From the IMG/VR virus record IMGVR_UViG_3300025853_000641, positions 1 through 24,144 of that record: a stretch of 24,144 nucleotides of DNA. One strand, given 5' to 3'. Each line of letters opens with the position of its first letter. Within the stretch, counting starts at the first letter, position 1. Of the stretch, positions 7,163 to 14,885 are shown piece by piece. Under the pieces are notes generated by a model. That model saw nothing but the letters and a program-made list of their open reading frames with translations. It had not been told where the DNA came from and ran no database searches. The stretch is from a virus. The position numbers and the translations under genes are program-made.

Positions 7163-9013
7163 TTAATTCACAGGTTTATAAATTGTTACTAGTTCGTCTT
7201 TACCTTTGACCTTAATTTTATCTAATTCAACTGATTTAATATTTTTCAATTGGTCGTGGGTATAAGATGAATATATTAATGGCTCAATGCCAGTTTCAGT
7301 TTTATAGTTTCTTGTAGAAGCTTCTAGTCTAGCAGCTAAGTTTACTGCGTCACCTATAACTGAATAGTCAAACCTTGTATCACTTCCCATATTACCAACA
7401 ATACAGGTGCCTGTGTTTACACCTGAACCAATGTTAATGGGTGGTAATCCTTTTTCTTTAAATATCTTTTTTAACTTCTCTGTTTCTTTAGCACACTCTA
7501 TACCTGTTTTAACAGCCATCTCTGCGTGATTAGGACAATCAATCGGTGCGTTCCAAAATGCCATGATACAATCGCCCATGTACTTATCAACACAACCACC
7601 ATTGTCAAGGACAATCTTTGTCATTCTATTTAAGTAATCATTTATTAATGCAACAAGTCCTTCGGGGTCATCATTGTTTTTATAGTATTCGGATATAGGT
7701 GTAAATCCTACAATATCCATGAATAAGAAACTCATCTCTTTTCTTTCGCCACCCAATTTTAGTTTACTAGGGTCTTTTTGTAGTATTGCAACTTGTCGTG
7801 GGTCAAGGTAAGATTCAAATTGTTTTCTTATTTGTTGTTTTAGTCTAAACTCTAAAATAAATCTATTAAATACTGCATGAAATCCTACAATAGTTAATGT
7901 AATTATAATCCAAGTACCATCAACTAACATTAATTTCTTATCAAAGAAATATTGAACACCAAGATAGGTAAAGAAATAGAAACCTAATAGTATAATACCT
8001 AACATCCAGTAAGGTAAAAATCTTGCCATTATTACTATAACACAACCTACTAAAAAGGCAACAGCTAATTCAACAATAAATGATATGTCCACCCTCTCTA
8101 TATTTGTGCCATCTATGACTGTCTGAAGTGTATTAGCAATGACAGTATAATCGTATTGTCCGCCTATCGGAGTAGCGACCACACCGCCTAATCCTTCAGC
8201 TTTGACGCCTATTATAATTGTCTTATTCTCTAAACTAATCTCGTTTGTATCTAAATCTGCCAATGATATTTCTGCATATGACTTATTCCATGTCAACCAT
8301 ATTCGAGCATTTGCGTCTGTTTTAATTGTTGCATAACCTGGTACTCTCATAGCAGTAATACCAGCCTCACTTGCTTTTACTTGATAGCTAGGGTCACCAA
8401 CTGCAACTCTAATTACTTCTATAGCAATATTAGGAAATACATCATTACCTATTTTCATAAGTAAAGGCATTCTTCTTACGACACCATCTATTTCAGGTGC
8501 GACATTTGTTGTACCTACACCAGCTGCATTATCGCCAATTTTAGGTATTGGACCTACCATACCTGGCCATTCAAATAAAAATTCTAAAGGATTACCTATT
8601 TTTGCAACACCTCTAGGATATCCGTTTTGTGTTGTTTGATGTGAACCTGTTTGTGATATTACTACAAAGTTGCCATTTAAAGTCATTGCTAATAAACCAT
8701 CACCACCCAATCTATCTTCCTCTGAAAATAAAATAGGCATGACAATAACACCAGCGCCTTGACTTCTTAATTTAATTATTGTTTCTGCTAAGACTTCTCT
8801 GTTCCATGGCCATTGACCATACTTTTCTATAGACTTTTCATCTATAGTTACAATAGCAATGTCTTGTGAGATTTCTTTTTCTTGTGATTGTAGTAAAAGG
8901 TCAAATGATTTTAACCTAAGAATTTCTTTTACTTGTGGGTCTTGTAAACCTATCCAAGTCAAGGCAAACAAGGTAACAAAAGCAAATGTCCAATGTGTAA
9001 ATAATTTCTTCAT
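7163..9013 (-). CDS. CHASE2-domain class III adenylyl cyclase
   Basis: A 616-residue membrane sensor enzyme predicted to make cAMP from ATP. An N-terminal helix (about 6-23) leads to an extracytoplasmic CHASE2 domain (about 30-305; IAIVTIDEKSIEKYGQWPWNR is typical), then three membrane helices (about 311-331, 335-356 and 364-385), and the cytoplasmic cyclase domain (about 420-616). Catalytic residues are intact: metal-binding D433 (FMDIVGFT) and D481 (YMGDCIMAF), base-contact K477, and transition-state N558 and R562 (VNLAARLE). S551 replaces the adenine-contact Asp, the Thr/Ser variant of class IIIb adenylyl cyclases, so ATP is more likely than GTP. AGGA precedes the ATG; the gene follows the PA14-curlin gene by nine bases. 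In bacteria CHASE2 cyclases often neighbour FecR genes, as here. An intact cyclase is very unusual in a phage. Confidence 0.93.
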   Translation of the reverse strand: MKKLFTHWTFAFVTLFALTWIGLQDPQVKEILRLKSFDLLLQSQEKEISQDIAIVTIDEKSIEKYGQWPWNREVLAETIIKLRSQGAGVIVMPILFSEEDRLGGDGLLAMTLNGNFVVISQTGSHQTTQNGYPRGVAKIGNPLEFLFEWPGMVGPIPKIGDNAAGVGTTNVAPEIDGVVRRMPLLMKIGNDVFPNIAIEVIRVAVGDPSYQVKASEAGITAMRVPGYATIKTDANARIWLTWNKSYAEISLADLDTNEISLENKTIIIGVKAEGLGGVVATPIGGQYDYTVIANTLQTVIDGTNIERVDISFIVELAVAFLVGCVIVIMARFLPYWMLGIILLGFYFFTYLGVQYFFDKKLMLVDGTWIIITLTIVGFHAVFNRFILEFRLKQQIRKQFESYLDPRQVAILQKDPSKLKLGGERKEMSFLFMDIVGFTPISEYYKNNDDPEGLVALINDYLNRMTKIVLDNGGCVDKYMGDCIMAFWNAPIDCPNHAEMAVKTGIECAKETEKLKKIFKEKGLPPINIGSGVNTGTCIVGNMGSDTRFDYSVIGDAVNLAARLEASTRNYKTETGIEPLIYSSYTHDQLKNIKSVELDKIKVKGKDELVTIYKPVN

Positions 9014-9022
9014 TATTCCTAT

Positions 9023-10327
9023 TTAGTTCTGTGTGACAGTTGCTGAACAACTTGCCTGTGTACAGTTTTGATATAGATAATAGTTTTGTGAGGTACTACT
9101 ATCTTGCGTCAATGTTACACTAGAAGTATTACCACTTAAATTAATTGTGGCATTGTGGTCACCACTTCCGTCTTGCGTTACATCTACATTATGACTATCA
9201 GTCAAGGTTATTTCTGCATAGTGATTGCCTGTGCCTTTTTGGTTTAAAGCCAAATTATTAGAACCATCTATGTCTATAAATGCCTTTTTATTTCCTGTTT
9301 CTGTCTGGTCTATATCAACATTATTACTATTGCCTGCTATGATAACTTCCATATAATGTTCACCAACATAGTTGATTGCTGATTGGTCTAAATCTACATT
9401 GTTTGATGAACCTGTTATATCTAGTATTGCTCTTTGGTCTTCGTTTTGTGTGACTGCCACATTGTTTGATGAACCAACAATATCTAAACCTAAAACATTA
9501 TCATTACCAATTTGGTCTAAATCTAAAGCATTATTATCACCAGTTATTACAGCTGATGAAGTTAAGTCTGTACCAATAATTAAGTTATCGTCACCGTCTT
9601 GTAATATGTTTAGTGTGTTACTATTTCCTGTTTGTGTAATATAAATTTGATTACCGTTTACGGCCTTATTTCTAGCATTATTGAAACTCGTTGTTTGTGC
9701 ATTTGTTATACCTGAGGTTGGTGTAACTTGTGTTGTTGAAAACCATGAAGTTGGTATATCTGTTTGACAAGAAGTTGAATAAGAGTTAGTCATACAGTAA
9801 TTAATATCTAAAGCGGCACCGCCACCCCATTCATACATCCATACTGTAATTTCATATTGTTGACCAGCAGTCTTTGTTAATGAACCAGTTGCGTTCCAAG
9901 TAGCAGTACCTTGTTGTTGCCAATCTTGTATAACATTTGTACCATCTATGTTCATAAACACACCATCATCAGCCGCTACACCAAAGTAAACTGTTGTCTG
10001 TTGTCCTGTTGTACCTGGCCAAGTGATATAACCTGTGATTTCTACTGCCACAGAATCACTTCTTCCACTATCTAATACCTGACCACTACCCCAATAATAT
10101 CCACTTGGACTTGATATAGTTCCTGTGCTGAGTACACTACCTAAACCGTTTGGACTGGAATTTGAACCATCTGTGTTATAACCTGCCACATTATCATAGA
10201 AAGGAAATTCTAGGCTTGGTGCATAGGTAGTTATAGCATATGTTTTATAATTTAAAACTCCTGCATTTGCTAAAGTTGTAAACAAGAAACAAATTAAAAA
10301 ACTAACGCTGATTAATATAGATTTCAT
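9023..10327 (-). CDS. Secreted PA14-like domain fused to curlin repeats
   Basis: A 434-residue exported protein. Signal peptide: residues 1-22, probable cleavage at ANA|G. Residues about 30-197 look like a PA14/GLEYA-type beta domain: VYFGVAADDGVFMNIDG and YEITVWMYEWGGGAALDI match the 'aDDG..l.idg' and late-strand patterns of that carbohydrate-binding family, with DD at 120-121 as likely calcium ligands. Residues about 226-434 are curlin-type repeats, as in NQIYITQTGNSN and NALDLDQIGNDN, that would fold into an amyloid beta-solenoid. It is thus a candidate fibre subunit or tip adhesin secreted through CsgG. AAGGAG lies just before the ATG. The gene overlaps the end of the FecR gene by 26 bases. 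Repeat assignment is firm; the PA14 assignment is good but by eye. Confidence 0.85.
   Translation of the reverse strand: MKSILISVSFLICFLFTTLANAGVLNYKTYAITTYAPSLEFPFYDNVAGYNTDGSNSSPNGLGSVLSTGTISSPSGYYWGSGQVLDSGRSDSVAVEITGYITWPGTTGQQTTVYFGVAADDGVFMNIDGTNVIQDWQQQGTATWNATGSLTKTAGQQYEITVWMYEWGGGAALDINYCMTNSYSTSCQTDIPTSWFSTTQVTPTSGITNAQTTSFNNARNKAVNGNQIYITQTGNSNTLNILQDGDDNLIIGTDLTSSAVITGDNNALDLDQIGNDNVLGLDIVGSSNNVAVTQNEDQRAILDITGSSNNVDLDQSAINYVGEHYMEVIIAGNSNNVDIDQTETGNKKAFIDIDGSNNLALNQKGTGNHYAEITLTDSHNVDVTQDGSGDHNATINLSGNTSSVTLTQDSSTSQNYYLYQNCTQASCSATVTQN
9026..9652 (-). repeat. Curlin-type repeat array within the PA14 fusion protein
   Basis: About eight degenerate repeats of roughly 20-25 residues. 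Each has two short beta strands, one ending in a Gln (x-V-x-x-x-Q) and one ending in G-S/N-S-N, with Asn at the turns: for example NVAVTQ and ILDITGSSN, NVDIDQ and AFIDIDGSN. These follow the Gln/Asn ladder logic of CsgA/CsgB repeats, but the canonical first Ser is often missing and Asp is enriched. DNA identity between repeats is low, so the array looks old rather than freshly amplified. Confidence 0.8.
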
Positions 10328-11414
10328 TATCTCCTTCTCCTAATTGATAATCTCTAATTTCTACATCACCTTGTGTGACATTTATATTATAACCATTTTC
10401 TTGGTTTAATCTTAATTCAATATTATTGTTTGATTCATCACTTCTTTTCCATACCCAATATGGAGCTTCATCTAATAATATAACACCAAACTCATCTTTA
10501 CCTGTTTTCTTTTTATCTTTACCTTTATCAAATTCGTTTCGCATTTGTAAGGCAAGTTGTTTATTTAATTGTTCTAAAATATCAACTAAAAAGTTTTGGT
10601 CTAAAAAATCTATTTCTAAAGCTGTATTTGCCTCGTCTTCTTCCGTTTCTAATAAGTCAACTTCTAAATCATCAAACTTTAAAAAGTCTATATCTAAAGC
10701 GTTAGCAATTACTTTTAATTTTGACTCTTGTTCAATTGCGTCTTCTAGTTTAGCAGGTTTTTGTACAATTAATAAGTTGTTAATTAAACTTTCATCTAAA
10801 TCCAATATAACTGGTTTTAAAGGATTACTTTCAGGTGTATCAACTTGTGTGGCCTGAAATGCCTGATTTAATATAACTTGGCCTGCGTCACTCTCAACTG
10901 ATATTTCTCCAACAAAACAATATCCATTTGTATCACAACTTGGTAATAATATAATTGTTGATGAACCTAACTCATCAATAGTCATGGCAAAATCTGTACC
11001 TCTAACAGATACAGTTGCTGTTGGTGTTTTTATTGAAATGTTTTGTGCTGAATTTTTGGCAATTTGACCACTAGCATATCTTACAGTACCTAGTGTTGCC
11101 TTTAATGAAAGTTTACCTGTCTTTTGATTTGGGTCGTAAACAAAATCATCAATGATAAGTTTAGAGTGCTGTGTAATGTCAACTCTGGTTTCATCCAGAA
11201 ATTCTATAGCAACTTGACCCTTACCTGTTTTTACCGTGTCGTAAGAGAAGATGTCAAGGTCTTTTTCAACTTTGACACCTCTCTCACCATCTTTTCTGTC
11301 TATTATAGAGTTACCTTTACTTAAAGTAACATCACCAATAGATGTATTACTTCTTGCTGGTAAAGTCGTAAGGATTAAGGCTAAGCATAAAATTATAAAA
11401 TTTATAACTTGCAT
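10302..11414 (-). CDS. Exported FecR-domain protein with curlin-like C-terminus
   Basis: A 370-residue exported protein with an N-terminal signal peptide (about 1-22; MQVINFIILCLALILTTLPA). Residues about 45-150 are a FecR domain: DTVKTGKGQVAIEFLDETRV, then GTVRYASGQIAK and PTATVSVRGTDFAM are the family's hallmark strands. A long acidic, leucine-rich linker follows (about 195-300). The last 40 residues (NNIELRLNQENGYNINVTQ and NEIYINQR) resemble one or two curlin repeat units, so the protein may cap or join the amyloid. In bacteria, exported FecR-domain proteins often neighbour CHASE2 cyclases, one of which is encoded two genes downstream. It may sense envelope state or fibre assembly; this is inference. 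Its Shine-Dalgarno site is weak (AGGA, about 11 bases from ATG). Confidence 0.88.
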   Translation of the reverse strand: MQVINFIILCLALILTTLPARSNTSIGDVTLSKGNSIIDRKDGERGVKVEKDLDIFSYDTVKTGKGQVAIEFLDETRVDITQHSKLIIDDFVYDPNQKTGKLSLKATLGTVRYASGQIAKNSAQNISIKTPTATVSVRGTDFAMTIDELGSSTIILLPSCDTNGYCFVGEISVESDAGQVILNQAFQATQVDTPESNPLKPVILDLDESLINNLLIVQKPAKLEDAIEQESKLKVIANALDIDFLKFDDLEVDLLETEEDEANTALEIDFLDQNFLVDILEQLNKQLALQMRNEFDKGKDKKKTGKDEFGVILLDEAPYWVWKRSDESNNNIELRLNQENGYNINVTQGDVEIRDYQLGEGDNEIYINQR

Positions 11415-11450
11415 ATATTATTAATCCTGTTAATAGTAAAAAACTTATCA

Positions 11451-12140
11451 TTAGTCCCTCTGTATAATGTCAATGTCAGCGTTGTCGCCACTTGTTGTTA
11501 AGTTAATTAAGTTATCATTGATACCTGATTGTGTAATATCAACATCAGCTGTACCACCTGTATGAGTATGTACCAATGTATGACCATTTACATCACCATT
11601 ACCATCTATGTCAATTAAGTAATTATTAGTATCACCGTTTACTGTGATTGTTAATACAGCGCTTGTGCCGTCAATAGTAGCAGCTACTGTATTTGAATCA
11701 GAGCCTGTGTTACCGACAATATCAACATCAGCATTTGAAGCGTCTGAAGTTTCGCCAATATCTAAATCAATATCGTTTGAGTTACCTGTAAAGTTAACTA
11801 CAGCATTGACAGTTCCACATGATGAGTTGCCGTTTGTACTGTCACAATTTAAATCAACATCATTCGAATCACCTTGTAGGTTAATAACACCTGTATATGT
11901 CGCACCATTAATTTGATAAGTGATAACATTCGAATTACCAACTTGGTCTATATTCAAATTAGTTGTTGCGCCAGTTGAGGCAGATGATGTTGTACTATTA
12001 CCGATTGTATTGTTTTCACCGTCTTGTAAAATATCTAAAGTTAAACTTGCACCAGATTGAGTAACATAAATGTCATTCGCCAATATTGGAGAGGTAATCA
12101 TAAACATAACAAACATAACGAAGCTTATTATTGTTTTCAT
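11451..12140 (-). CDS. Curlin-repeat amyloid subunit (CsgA/CsgB-like)
   Basis: A 229-residue exported protein with a signal peptide (about 1-21; cleavage near ILA|N). The mature part begins at once with curlin repeats (NDIYVTQSGASLTLDILQDGENN) and is rich in Asn, Asp, Ser, Thr and Gly throughout. Later repeats (NLNIDQVGNSN, VDITQSGINDN, ADIDIIQRD) keep the Gln/Asn ladder, while the middle (about 75-165) has lost most Gln and is Asp-rich. Two Cys near residues 99 and 107 may form a disulfide. With no other domain it is the simplest candidate for the main fibre subunit. It follows csgG by 20 bases and has an AGGAGG Shine-Dalgarno site about 10 bases before ATG. Whether it plays the CsgA or CsgB role cannot be told. 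Confidence 0.85.
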   Translation of the reverse strand: MKTIISFVMFVMFMITSPILANDIYVTQSGASLTLDILQDGENNTIGNSTTSSASTGATTNLNIDQVGNSNVITYQINGATYTGVINLQGDSNDVDLNCDSTNGNSSCGTVNAVVNFTGNSNDIDLDIGETSDASNADVDIVGNTGSDSNTVAATIDGTSAVLTITVNGDTNNYLIDIDGNGDVNGHTLVHTHTGGTADVDITQSGINDNLINLTTSGDNADIDIIQRD

Positions 12141-12160
12141 AGTTTCTTATCCTCCTGGTT

Positions 12161-13009
12161 CTAGCCTCTTATAGCGTTGCTATGAACCTTTGGTATTTCT
12201 ATTTCCTTCTCTTTATATTTCCAAAAACCTTGTTTCTCACCTGATTGTATCAGTTGTAAAACTGCAAACTCGATAGCAGTCCGTATTGCATAGTTAACAG
12301 GTTCGTTTACGGCCACGCCTGTTTCTAATTCTAACGCTTTTGTACCCATGTCTAAAAACCTGAATACATCTCCACCACTAGAATGACTAGCAATGGTTTT
12401 AGTTACATTAGTTGTCAATAATATTTCACCAGTTTGTACTGATACAATTCTCATTGATACAGTTACCTGGTCTACTCTATATTGCTCACTCAAACCTATG
12501 CCAAAATATCTTGCACCTTGACCACCTGATTGTGTGTTACTATCGTAACCTACAATACCACCTTCAATTATCAAGCCTGCAAATAACATTGGCTTTAAAA
12601 CTTGTTTTATTTCTTGTTCACCATCATATAAATCTCTTGTACTTCTAATCAATTGTCTTTCTTTGACAAGATTGTCTAAACCATTTCTTTCGACAACTTG
12701 AAACCATGTACCATTTGATACAGATTTCAAAGCATTAATTACAAATACATCACTACCTTGTGTTACGGCAGTTGATAGTTGAGAAAACTTTGTACTTGGT
12801 TTTCTCTGACCTGTTAAGTCTGTAAACCGATAGACAGCAATACTAATTTGTGGTTGGTCTAACTCCGGTAAATCTTTTAATAATTCATGCGTAGGAGTAC
12901 CTTCTACATAAGGCATACTACCTTTAAAAGTGCTAGTGTTTTTCGAAGTTGTAGAGGCACAACTTGACAACACTATTCCCATAATTATTACCAACAATGC
13001 TTTTAGCAT
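12161..13009 (-). CDS. csgG: Curli secretion pore lipoprotein CsgG
   Basis: A 282-residue outer-membrane lipoprotein that forms the nonameric curli export channel. Lipobox LSSC places the lipidated Cys at residue 17. The match to E. coli CsgG runs end to end: ISIAVYRFTDLTGQRKP, WFQVVERNGLDNLVKERQ, IIEGGIVGYDSN, QGARYFGIG, QYRVDQVTVSMRIVSVQTGEIL, VFRFLD, NEPVNYAIRTAIEF and GFWKYK. Length is as in E. coli (277). The loop that forms the pore constriction (residues 72-78, between KP and STAV) differs: E. coli has Y51, N55 and F56 in six residues, while here there are seven (STKFSQL), so the gate is altered. AGGAG with a TAATG overlap couples it to the small membrane protein upstream; csgF is one gene further upstream. 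Confidence 0.96.
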   Translation of the reverse strand: MLKALLVIIMGIVLSSCASTTSKNTSTFKGSMPYVEGTPTHELLKDLPELDQPQISIAVYRFTDLTGQRKPSTKFSQLSTAVTQGSDVFVINALKSVSNGTWFQVVERNGLDNLVKERQLIRSTRDLYDGEQEIKQVLKPMLFAGLIIEGGIVGYDSNTQSGGQGARYFGIGLSEQYRVDQVTVSMRIVSVQTGEILLTTNVTKTIASHSSGGDVFRFLDMGTKALELETGVAVNEPVNYAIRTAIEFAVLQLIQSGEKQGFWKYKEKEIEIPKVHSNAIRG

Positions 13010-13290
13010 TAATCTCTCCTTGCGTCTTCTTTACCATCAGCTCTACTAATTCTTTCTTCATCTTGCCTTAAATTTAAGGCATCTGAAATCTGTATGTCTA
13101 ATTTAATCATATCATTATTCATATTCTTAACTCTATTCTCTAATCCCATAATGATACCGTGCATACCAGAAACTTGGCCTACGACAGATTCTAAAATGTA
13201 TTTTATAATTAAGAAGATGAAAAAACCCATAACAACCGAAGCGGCTACGGGCAATCCAAATTTAACTAGTATATCAAAAAATAATTCCAT
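13009..13290 (-). CDS. One-helix membrane protein with coiled coil, between csgF and csgG
   Basis: A 93-residue protein with an N-terminal membrane helix (about residues 11-34 after MELFFDILVKFG) and a C-terminal amphipathic coiled coil ending in a charged tail. It is a paralogue of the protein at 13857-14111: both share the plan M-short-DIL-x-(K/R)-(F/Y)-G, helix, then a G-M-x-G-(I/V)-(I/L)-x-G-L pattern and an ND-x-I-x-L segment. I chose the ATG at 13290 because it aligns with that paralogue; an upstream in-frame TTG would overlap csgF. The csgF stop and this ATG are one base apart. Architecture resembles small phage holins of the BhlA/UviB type. A pore partner of the curli channel or a holin are both possible. 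Confidence 0.75.
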   Translation of the reverse strand: MELFFDILVKFGLPVAASVVMGFFIFLIIKYILESVVGQVSGMHGIIMGLENRVKNMNNDMIKLDIQISDALNLRQDEERISRADGKEDARRD

Positions 13291-13291
13291 A

Positions 13292-13780
13292 CTAGAATAC
13301 AAAATCTCCTATTGGCACACTCATACTTGTAACTGTGCCATCTTCAGCCGTAATGGTTAATGTAATAATCTCTGTTGTGGTATCTTTGACCCAATATATG
13401 GTCGCACCCTCAATCTCTGAGGTACCACTTGTTGGACAAGTTGTTGTACTTGAATCACAACTTGTACCAAACATATTGTCAACCAGCTGTTTAGACAGGT
13501 TGGCATAAATTCTACTTTCCACATTAGCAATAAACTTGTTAATTGTGGTGTTTTTTTCTGCTCTTTCAGCGGCCGCAGCTGCCGATTTAGCGTCATCTAT
13601 ATTTTTCTGTTTTCTTTGTTCTTGTAACTGGTCGACAGAAAGCACATGGTTTGAATAACCGTCACCACTAAAGGCTGGGTTTTTAAAGCCATGTACCAGT
13701 TCGGATGCTAGTATTTTTGTATTCAGGAGAGTTAATGTAAGTGCCACTACTAACATCATTGTTTTAAATGATGTTTTCAT
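13292..13780 (-). CDS. csgF: Curli assembly factor CsgF
   Basis: A 162-residue exported protein with a signal peptide ending about residue 26 (KILAS). The mature N-terminus has LVHGFKNPAF; the FxNPxF core (F32-F37) matches the FRNPNF of E. coli CsgF, the segment that inserts in the CsgG channel and forms a second constriction. An Ala/Lys-rich helix (about 55-85) follows, then a region with two Cys (CDSSTTTC) and a C-terminal beta part ending IPIGDFVF, like the ISVSG...DF end of CsgF. In E. coli CsgF holds the nucleator on the cell surface at the pore. The gene leads the curli block, with TATAAATA just before its ATG and no Shine-Dalgarno site visible. It is longer than E. coli CsgF (138) mainly in the linker. 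Confidence 0.85.
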   Translation of the reverse strand: MKTSFKTMMLVVALTLTLLNTKILASELVHGFKNPAFSGDGYSNHVLSVDQLQEQRKQKNIDDAKSAAAAAERAEKNTTINKFIANVESRIYANLSKQLVDNMFGTSCDSSTTTCPTSGTSEIEGATIYWVKDTTTEIITLTITAEDGTVTSMSVPIGDFVF

Positions 13781-13785
13781 ACTAC

Positions 13786-13793
13786 TATTTATA
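13786..13793 (-). promoter_or_regulatory. T4-type late promoter octamer upstream of csgF
   Basis: TATAAATA on the minus strand is an exact match to the T4 late promoter box recognised by the gp55 sigma factor. It ends five bases before the csgF ATG, so a transcript starting at the usual distance would be leaderless or nearly so. It lies directly after a hairpin and at the boundary between lysis genes and the curli block. In this AT-rich genome chance occurrence is a real possibility. Confidence 0.5.
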
Positions 13794-13856: not shown

Positions 13857-14111
13857 TTACTTTTTTGACTTTGTTCTCTTTTCGTTCTCACGCACGGTCA
13901 ATATGGTGTTTAACTTTGAGCGTAAACGAATTAAGTCATTGTCCAGCATACGAATTCTGTCTATGAGACCAATTAGCACACCATTCATTTCACCTAATTT
14001 TACTTTAATCTGTGTGGTAATATATATGTAAATAAAATAAACAAACCAACCTAGACCTATAGCGGCCAATGTTGCAAATCCATATCTGTTTAAAATATCA
14101 ACAATATCCAT
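13857..14111 (-). CDS. One-helix membrane protein with coiled coil, holin-like
   Basis: An 84-residue protein with an N-terminal membrane helix (about 11-33, GFATLAAIGLGWFVYFIYIYI), then an amphipathic coiled coil (LGEMNGVLIGLIDRIRMLDNDLIRL) and a Lys-rich tail. It is a paralogue of the protein at 13009-13290 and the two flank csgF. Its ATG overlaps the stop of the outer spanin gene (TAATG) with AAAGAG just upstream, so it is the last gene of the lysis block. The size and plan fit BhlA/UviB-like phage holins. With another holin-like protein encoded at 14890-15048, this one could be the holin, an antiholin, or a partner of the curli pore. Confidence 0.72.
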   Translation of the reverse strand: MDIVDILNRYGFATLAAIGLGWFVYFIYIYITTQIKVKLGEMNGVLIGLIDRIRMLDNDLIRLRSKLNTILTVRENEKRTKSKK

Positions 14112-14491
14112 TACTCTTTAGTTTCTTCTTCGCTCTCATAATATTCTTTATACTTGTCTAATAAAGCATTAGTTTCTACTAATTTATTTCTAATCTGAGC
14201 AAAGTTCTTTGCTAATAGTTCAAAGTCTTTATCTGTTAATCCCCATAATACCGGGTCAATACCATCAGCCTCTAATTTAGCAAACACTTCAGCTGCATTT
14301 TCACTGGTAATAATATGCCAATGAATTTGTTCCATTTGTAATGGAGTTGGTTTTTCTAAATTAAGTTTAGCTCTAGGTACTTCTTCTTTAAATATACTTA
14401 ACTCTTTTACTCCAGCACAACTAGTAAGGAATATAGTTAGGGTTAGCAATAGAAGGACACTCTGTATTGATTTCAGACTTCTTCGTAGCAT
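14111..14491 (-). CDS. Outer-membrane spanin-like lipoprotein (Rz1-like)
   Basis: A 126-residue lipoprotein with signal TIFLTSCAG; the lipobox LTSC places the lipidated Cys at residue 25. The mature part is mainly helical with conserved-looking PTPLQMEQIHWHIITSENAAEVF and a helix toward the C-terminus. The ATG lies inside the 3' end of the upstream Rz-like gene (71-base overlap in another frame), the classical arrangement of overlapping inner and outer spanin genes. Together they would span the periplasm and fuse the two membranes at lysis, so the host is Gram-negative. It is larger than lambda Rz1 and not proline-rich, so the outer spanin call rests on lipobox plus gene overlap. Confidence 0.78.
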   Translation of the reverse strand: MLRRSLKSIQSVLLLLTLTIFLTSCAGVKELSIFKEEVPRAKLNLEKPTPLQMEQIHWHIITSENAAEVFAKLEADGIDPVLWGLTDKDFELLAKNFAQIRNKLVETNALLDKYKEYYESEEETKE

Positions 14492-14885
14492 TAATCTCTT
14501 TCTCCGTCAATGGTGAACCACTTGCGATTTCTATACATCTGTTAGCCTTATCACTAGCAGAGTTAGTAATTCTTTCAATTGTTTTTGTTTTTTCAATTGC
14601 AAGTAAACCAACATCTCTGTTTTTCTTATTAAATCGTTTATCTAAATCGGCAAAATCTGTTTTTAGTTTGCCAATTAGTTCGTTCATTTCTTTGTTAGCC
14701 ACAAGTATGGCCTCAAAATCTTTTTTTTGATTTTCAATTAGTGTTTTTTGGTCAGCGATTGCTGATTCCATTTTGATAGCGTTTGCTTTTAAAATTGCAT
14801 TATCTTTTTGCAACTTCAAAACATAGAAGCCACCGCCGGCTAAGGCGGTGACTATAAGTCCTATAAAAAATAATCTAATTCCCAT
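14421..14885 (-). CDS. Inner-membrane spanin-like protein (Rz-like)
   Basis: A 154-residue protein with one N-terminal membrane helix (about 4-23) followed by a long periplasmic coiled coil (about 25-75) and a C-terminal region with two Cys (NRCIEIASG and NTECPSI). This is the plan of i-spanins: type II membrane protein, coiled-coil shaft and a C-terminal part that meets the outer-membrane lipoprotein. The gene starts four bases after the holin-like gene with AAGGA as ribosome site, and the lipoprotein gene begins inside its 3' end. The family assignment is by architecture and context. Confidence 0.8.
   Translation of the reverse strand: MGIRLFFIGLIVTALAGGGFYVLKLQKDNAILKANAIKMESAIADQKTLIENQKKDFEAILVANKEMNELIGKLKTDFADLDKRFNKKNRDVGLLAIEKTKTIERITNSASDKANRCIEIASGSPLTEKEINATKKSEINTECPSIANPNYIPY

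Follow-up and report, generated by a model that had tools for sequence, protein, structure and literature searches.

A curli module in bacteriophages was reported in 2020 (PMC7029224), and in 2022 FecR, a cyclase and a second CsgA/B-type gene, at the position of the gene that we call here cur2, were added to it, in a study that also reported from ocean metatranscriptomes that phage curli genes are expressed and proposed an alphaproteobacterial origin for them (PMC9599517). The module of phage Melnitz has been given an interpretation in terms of pore formation and lysis (PMC9004378). The type VIII modules of pelagiphages (HTVC008M, the HTVC023P type and Melnitz) share the same operon, composed of csgF, csgG, a CsgA/B-like curlin, FecR, a second curlin and an adenylate cyclase. 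Their purpose in phages of SAR11 and related bacteria is unexplained, and sibling capture, competitor exclusion, a pore and lysis timing have all been considered. In the three papers cited the second curlin figures only as CsgA/B, with neither an alternative head nor head exchange, and the term "PA14" is absent from all of them. We analysed a stretch of viral DNA of 24,144 nucleotides (IMG/VR record IMGVR_UViG_3300025853_000641, hereafter the window) in which the second curlin gene encodes a PA14 domain fused to curlin repeats. The first-pass annotation of this DNA knew of no described phage protein with such a pairing. This holds for the open-access literature, where "curlin" and "PA14 domain" occur together in one paper, a review of adhesin cross-beta interactions (the fusion could be described elsewhere), but the pairing was already present in GenBank, since the same fusion is encoded by the cultured phage HTVC008M (AGE60352.1, covering 98% of the query, with a 92.7% identical head) under the annotation "hypothetical protein".

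The curli module of a pelagimyophage contig

The window is a pelagimyophage contig similar to HTVC008M in gene content, with ribonucleotide reductase and other T4-like genes nearby according to our reading of the list of open reading frames. Its curli module comprises eight genes (Table 1), and the core neighbourhood csgF-csgG-curlin-FecR-cur2-cyclase is conserved across phages, HTVC008M and Melnitz having the same core order. The two small proteins that flank csgF (84-97 aa) lack any Pfam match; they may correspond to the "histidine kinase" mentioned in PMC9599517, although their length is insufficient for a kinase. CsgE, likewise reported missing in phage curli modules (PMC9599517), had no Pfam match among the ten module ORFs scanned. 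An overlapping pair of Rz/Rz1-like spanin genes lies on the minus strand directly upstream of the module (14421-14885 and, for the lipoprotein, 14111-14491, phrog_812). A T4-type late promoter TATAAATA at 13786-13793 on the minus strand, 6 nt before csgF, was dropped as a candidate, with four matches in the window for 4.6 expected.

Table 1. Genes of the module, in their order along the minus strand, and subdivisions of cur2
Feature	Coordinates	Strand	Basis or remarks
Small TM protein (phrog_18771), second copy, upstream of csgF	13857..14111	minus	
csgF, curli pore partner	13292..13780	minus	Pfam CsgF E=5e-13
Small single-TM protein (phrog_18771), between csgF and csgG	13009..13302	minus	
csgG, curli outer-membrane secretion pore	12161..13009	minus	Pfam CsgG E=1e-51
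First curlin (CsgA/B-like), headless	11451..12140	minus	homologous to the cur2 body and to HTVC008M "CsgB"; weak NCBIfam CsgB match
FecR-domain protein, exported	10302..11414	minus	Pfam FecR E=6.5e-10; curlin-like h-x-h-x-Q C-terminal strands
cur2, PA14-curlin fusion protein	9023..10327	minus	434 aa, ATG start; second curlin gene of the module
cur2, Sec signal peptide, residues 1-22	10262..10327	minus	sequence inspection
cur2, PA14 head cassette, residues 23-200	9728..10261	minus	Pfam PF07691, Foldseek and VIA PA14 matches, cassette borders
cur2, DDG motif, residues 120-122	9962..9970	minus	putative equivalent of the Ca-binding DcisD of PA14 lectins
cur2, curlin body, residues 201-434	9026..9727	minus	8-9 repeats, predicted beta-solenoid
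CHASE2 and class III adenylate/guanylate cyclase, last gene of the module	7163..9013	minus	Pfam CHASE2 E=1e-41, Guanylate_cyc E=4e-17

The C-terminal strands of FecR, which occupy about the last 45 residues of the protein in the window, recur in 64 of 71 phage relatives, where shuffling would give 7.7, so that curlin strands are present in three of the proteins that the module encodes. To judge from its sequence, FecR may be a nucleator or anchor of the fibre instead of an iron regulator. These strands and the gene order fecR-cur2-cyclase would also suit a signalling device, the main structural alternative to a fibre subunit, in which a periplasmic or pore-associated cur2 would sense a ligand, bind the exported FecR and modulate the CHASE2 adenylate cyclase, thereby changing host cAMP in response to a sugar or to the state of the envelope. 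The presence of csgG, curlin, FecR and the CHASE2 cyclase on a Hyphomonas contig, described below, adds to this possibility by indicating that FecR and the cyclase travel with curli. However, in ten FecR clusters fecR is followed by the cyclase with no cur2 between them, as in Hyphomonas, so signalling needs no cur2, and the rapid exchange of heads is more in keeping with an external binding target than with an internal sensor. We therefore consider a signalling role of cur2 to be quite unlikely.

Signal peptide, PA14 head and curlin body of cur2

The cur2 gene and the 3' end of fecR share 26 nt. A plus-strand or chance reading of this interval was rejected, as the plus strand is stop-rich and non-coding and the minus-strand ORF is real. 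By inspection, the signal peptide is cleaved between MKSILISVSFLICFLFTTLANA and G, and in relatives the segment that encodes it travels with fecR and not with the head (the DNA of two loci, L053 and L054, is 97% identical up to the signal-peptide end). The open reading frame, the Pfam matches and the predicted fold all confirmed the initial proposal that a signal peptide, a PA14 domain with a DDG motif and curlin repeats are joined here in a single protein, and the domain reading, a PA14 domain plus curlin amyloid repeats in one phage protein, is right.

Residues 76-173 match the Pfam PA14 family (PF07691) with E=8.2e-9 and a score of 35.9 bits (gathering cutoff 24), and the best solved relative of the head by sequence is the PA14 domain of RsgI3 (phmmer E=7.8e-8; profile E=2.5e-13). 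In an AlphaFold model of cur2 built from seven sequences and of moderate confidence (mean pLDDT 65.5), residues 15-204 adopt the PA14 beta-sandwich fold (Foldseek E about 1e-6). VIA aligned the head with RsgI3 6qe7 (Z 17.8, rmsd 2.5 over 139 residues), with the trehalose-bound MpPA14 lectin 6xa5 (Z 14.4) and with Flo/Epa lectins (Z about 11.5). The first-pass annotation had staked its reading in advance on this structural comparison, and residues 15-204 do match PA14 structures. In MpPA14, the calcium in contact with the sugar is coordinated by the Asp pair (PMC8092209). The 21 distinct PA14-type heads that we extracted from related phages all retain the DD-G pattern, of which only the first D counts as independent, as extraction used the [DN]DG motif. 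Like PA14 lectins, the cur2 head may bind glycans. Two loci of a subtype labelled as PA14 (L099 and L104) show weak Pfam support, with E=0.003 for the former and none for the latter.

The rest of the protein resembles known curlins both in sequence and in its repetitive architecture. It matches Pfam Curlin_rpt (PF07012; E=5e-5, 23.5 bits vs a cutoff of 20.7), gives a weak match to the CsgB profile and can be related by sequence to solved curlins (8c50, E=2.8e-9; E. coli CsgA 8enq, E=0.006). Strands of the form N-x-h-x-h-x-Q occur at residues 226, 237, 266, 289, 310, 336, 358, 380, (402) and 415, with a spacing of about 22 residues, and the 14 overlapping matches to the repeat motif contrast with 0.6 (maximum 4) in 2000 shuffles. 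We count 8-9 repeats, which bears out the earlier estimate of about eight. Modelling of the repeats as a beta-solenoid was the other point on which the annotation had been made to depend: residues 222-433 of the model form such a solenoid and match beta-helices and solenoids, with Z 17.0 to a beta-helix chain of SufB-SufC-SufD and 11.8 to GH87.

Exchange of heads on a conserved body

Relatives were gathered through the curlin body or FecR and classed by what precedes the body. Across 71 FecR-distinct phage loci, the gene that follows fecR has a PA14 head in 20 (a count inflated by the fact that some searches were PA14-seeded), a GIFT/GATase-like head in 16, no head in 15 and a short form in 3, is absent in 10 and is unclassed in the other 7. 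The 49 clusters that hold a FecR-seeded locus divide into 14 headless, 11 with the second head, 10 without the gene, 4 with PA14, 3 short and 7 unclassed. Since the head, or the gene altogether, is missing from many relatives, cur2 is dispensable in some lineages, which counts against the fibre subunit proposed below.

The exchange of heads is evident from the contrast between head and body identities. The near-identical loci L053 and L054 differ in the head alone: their DNA is 97.3% identical over the end of fecR and the signal peptide, has no blastn match across the head and is again 95.3% identical over the body, the two heads sharing 50% of their amino acids and being 44% identical at fourfold sites. 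The head of the window is 94-96% identical in amino acids to those of L005 and L053 and 94-96% at fourfold sites (95-98% with slightly different borders and with HTVC008M included), whereas elsewhere the same loci differ widely, with 56-61% amino acid identity in the body and 48-50% at FecR fourfold sites, just 10 of which were compared for the cut FecR of L053. The reverse case is provided by L031 and L043, whose bodies are 86-90% identical to that of the window in amino acids and 80-83% at fourfold sites but whose heads are only 18-26% identical. DNA identity profiles drop sharply near residues 20-25 and 200. These contrasts imply that heads and bodies travelled separately among phages in which the flanking genes approach synonymous saturation: the head is exchanged by recombination on a conserved body. 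This exchangeable head cassette looks like the new part of the system, and the exchange pattern is the part most worth following.

Most of the loci are metagenomic, and head swaps might in principle come from chimeric contigs. We regard this explanation as extremely improbable: the same head occurs in the genome of the cultured phage HTVC008M, the pattern recurs in contigs of different metagenomes, and the heads of L053 and L054, with no blastn match between them, have too little common DNA for k-mer joining inside the head.

The alternative head, folded alone (pLDDT 83), has a Rossmann fold of the GIFT/ThuA/GATase type, with Z 17.6 to IFT52 and 15-16 to OST48-type subunits and GH42 domains, and our consideration of it as a new fold was abandoned for this reason. 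The two heads are thus different folds on one chassis. The alternative head has its fold in common with GIFT and class I glutamine-amidotransferase-like domains (IFT52, OST48, ThuA-like) but shares with them no Pfam or PDB sequence match; among 15 such heads, one gave a sub-cutoff match to ThuA, and tblastn against annotated phage records returned no match. A domain of the same GIFT-like fold is present in BFVD A0A6J5R861, a 613-aa protein of an uncultured Caudovirales annotated as an autotransporter beta-domain (TMq 0.71, E=2e-9).

The headless form is that of Melnitz. This phage was described as being without csgA and csgB (PMC9004378); its GenBank record (MZ577097, L002 in our set) annotates two curlin-repeat proteins and FecR in the module. 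The explanation proposed for it, in which the CsgG-CsgF complex would be a lysis-timing pore or an uptake channel and the curlin genes mere passengers, agrees with the position of the spanin genes directly upstream of the module in the window. It accords poorly with the conservation of the curlin body, which is 85-91% identical in amino acids in L001, L007, L010, L011, L031 and L043 as against 66-86% for their csgG, with the active recombination of the heads, neither of which is the behaviour of passengers, and with the two curlin-repeat proteins and FecR encoded by Melnitz itself. A pore-centred module thus appears very unlikely to us.

A partial sampling of 1,149 bacterial genomes (385 Alphaproteobacteria, 369 from the class of Halomonas and 395 from the phylum of a Flavobacteriaceae MAG) contained no PA14-curlin fusion outside phage contigs. 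It gave PA14-only and curlin-only matches and just one long match, to the curlin portion of a GIFT-type fusion carried by a T4-like phage contig that had been binned into a MAG. A scan of genome contigs with the PA14-curlin alignment retrieved no fusion, and a PA14 HMM of the phage heads had 0 matches near bacterial csgG, in 80 csgG loci and 151 curlin-like ORFs chosen by a simple motif, some of them out of frame. We reject a bacterial origin of the fusion on these searches, absence from a partial sampling not being proof. A 705-kb contig of Hyphomonas sp. TMED17 with bacterial flanking genes (L180, positions 7402-13494) carries csgF-like, csgG, curlin, FecR and CHASE2-adenylate cyclase genes without cur2, an arrangement that fits the alphaproteobacterial origin proposed for the phage curli genes (PMC9599517). 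Several apparent phage contigs with a curli module lie inside bacterial MAGs (L156-L164, L168, L173, L175 and L224, with T4-like genes adjoining the module in L173, L175 and L162) and are a source of false "bacterial curli" matches. The 1.5-kb record OR851715.1, "Salmonella phage S.Kent 1-2-1", has a CsgG-like gene 42% identical to that of the window and is probably host DNA.

A proposed fibre subunit and its known counterparts

That the second curlin bears a lectin-type head, in whose place relatives have an unrelated one, points to a binding function of the fibre, and the adjacency of csgF, csgG, the first curlin and FecR to cur2 in one operon makes display on a curli-type fibre plausible. 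We judge it somewhat more probable than the contrary that cur2 is a minor curli-type subunit, an exchangeable assemblage of signal peptide, ligand-binding head and curlin body whose head is displayed on the fibre. We infer the steps from secretion onward as follows. During infection, the host would export the first curlin and cur2 through the phage CsgG-CsgF pore, and the curlin bodies would co-assemble into an amyloid fibre at the cell surface, with the PA14 head placed on the fibre or at its end. There it could bind, in a Ca-dependent manner, glycans of neighbouring host cells, of particles or of the envelope of the infected cell itself. Head swapping would retune the stickiness of the fibre as happens with tail-fibre tips, although this fibre would be made by the infected cell and not carried on the virion. 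The benefit is probably either the capture of sibling hosts at lysis or the blocking of competing phages; our data favour neither.

The main doubt about this fibre concerns secretion. CsgG passes unfolded chains, and fusions of mCherry, Bla and PhoA to CsgA were not secreted (PMC6302416); a head of 178 aa might fold already in the periplasm and block CsgG. The head of cur2 is moreover N-terminal, whereas the working CsgA fusions are C-terminal (PMC6302416, PMC6898321). For phage Melnitz, clumping was not observed (PMC9004378), a result that does not test a head-bearing fibre because the Melnitz gene is headless, and the headless form may be the reason for it. The binding function is testable in the cultured phage HTVC008M on HTCC1062.

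The main functional alternative is receptor masking, in which a fibre-borne lectin would bind the glycans of the infected cell itself and hide receptors from competing phages, the variety of heads tracking that of host surfaces. It relies on the same anatomy as the fibre subunit just described, from which it differs only in the location of the ligand. Curli have been proposed as a barrier to competing viruses (PMC9599517), and pelagimyophages also encode LPS-modifying glycosyltransferases (PMC7029224). Superinfection exclusion of this kind seems to us rather unlikely. Returning to the displayed adhesin, a wider reading, which we put forward tentatively and at somewhat less than even confidence, is that marine phages build an amyloid fibre on the infected cell and, through head cassettes of unrelated folds exchanged by recombination, diversify an adhesin outside the virion, on the infected cell or on lysis debris.

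Cur2 shares with CsgA and CsgB of E. coli the curlin repeats, the CsgG and CsgF partners and the sequence match to solved curlins. Unlike them, it bears an N-terminal head of 178 aa and has no recognisable N22 segment (no clear N22-like stretch was seen by eye), within a module with no recognisable CsgE; the E. coli proteins have five repeats and cur2 has more. Its head resembles PA14 lectin adhesins, such as Marinomonas MpPA14 and yeast Flo/Epa (PMC8092209), in the beta-sandwich fold and in the consecutive Asp pair followed by Gly, but it is joined to a phage-encoded amyloid subunit, whereas those lectins stand on RTX or cell-wall stalks. The nearest likeness in design is with engineered curli, in which CsgA fused to single-domain antibodies or trefoil factors is secreted and displayed by the E. 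coli curli machinery (PMC6302416, PMC6898321). Both place a binding domain on a curli subunit, and cur2, as a natural counterpart of such functionalised curli, would show how a folded head passes CsgG or avoids passing it; in contrast with the engineered versions, the cur2 fusion occurs in nature, is encoded by a phage, has its binding domain at the N terminus and is diversified by recombination.
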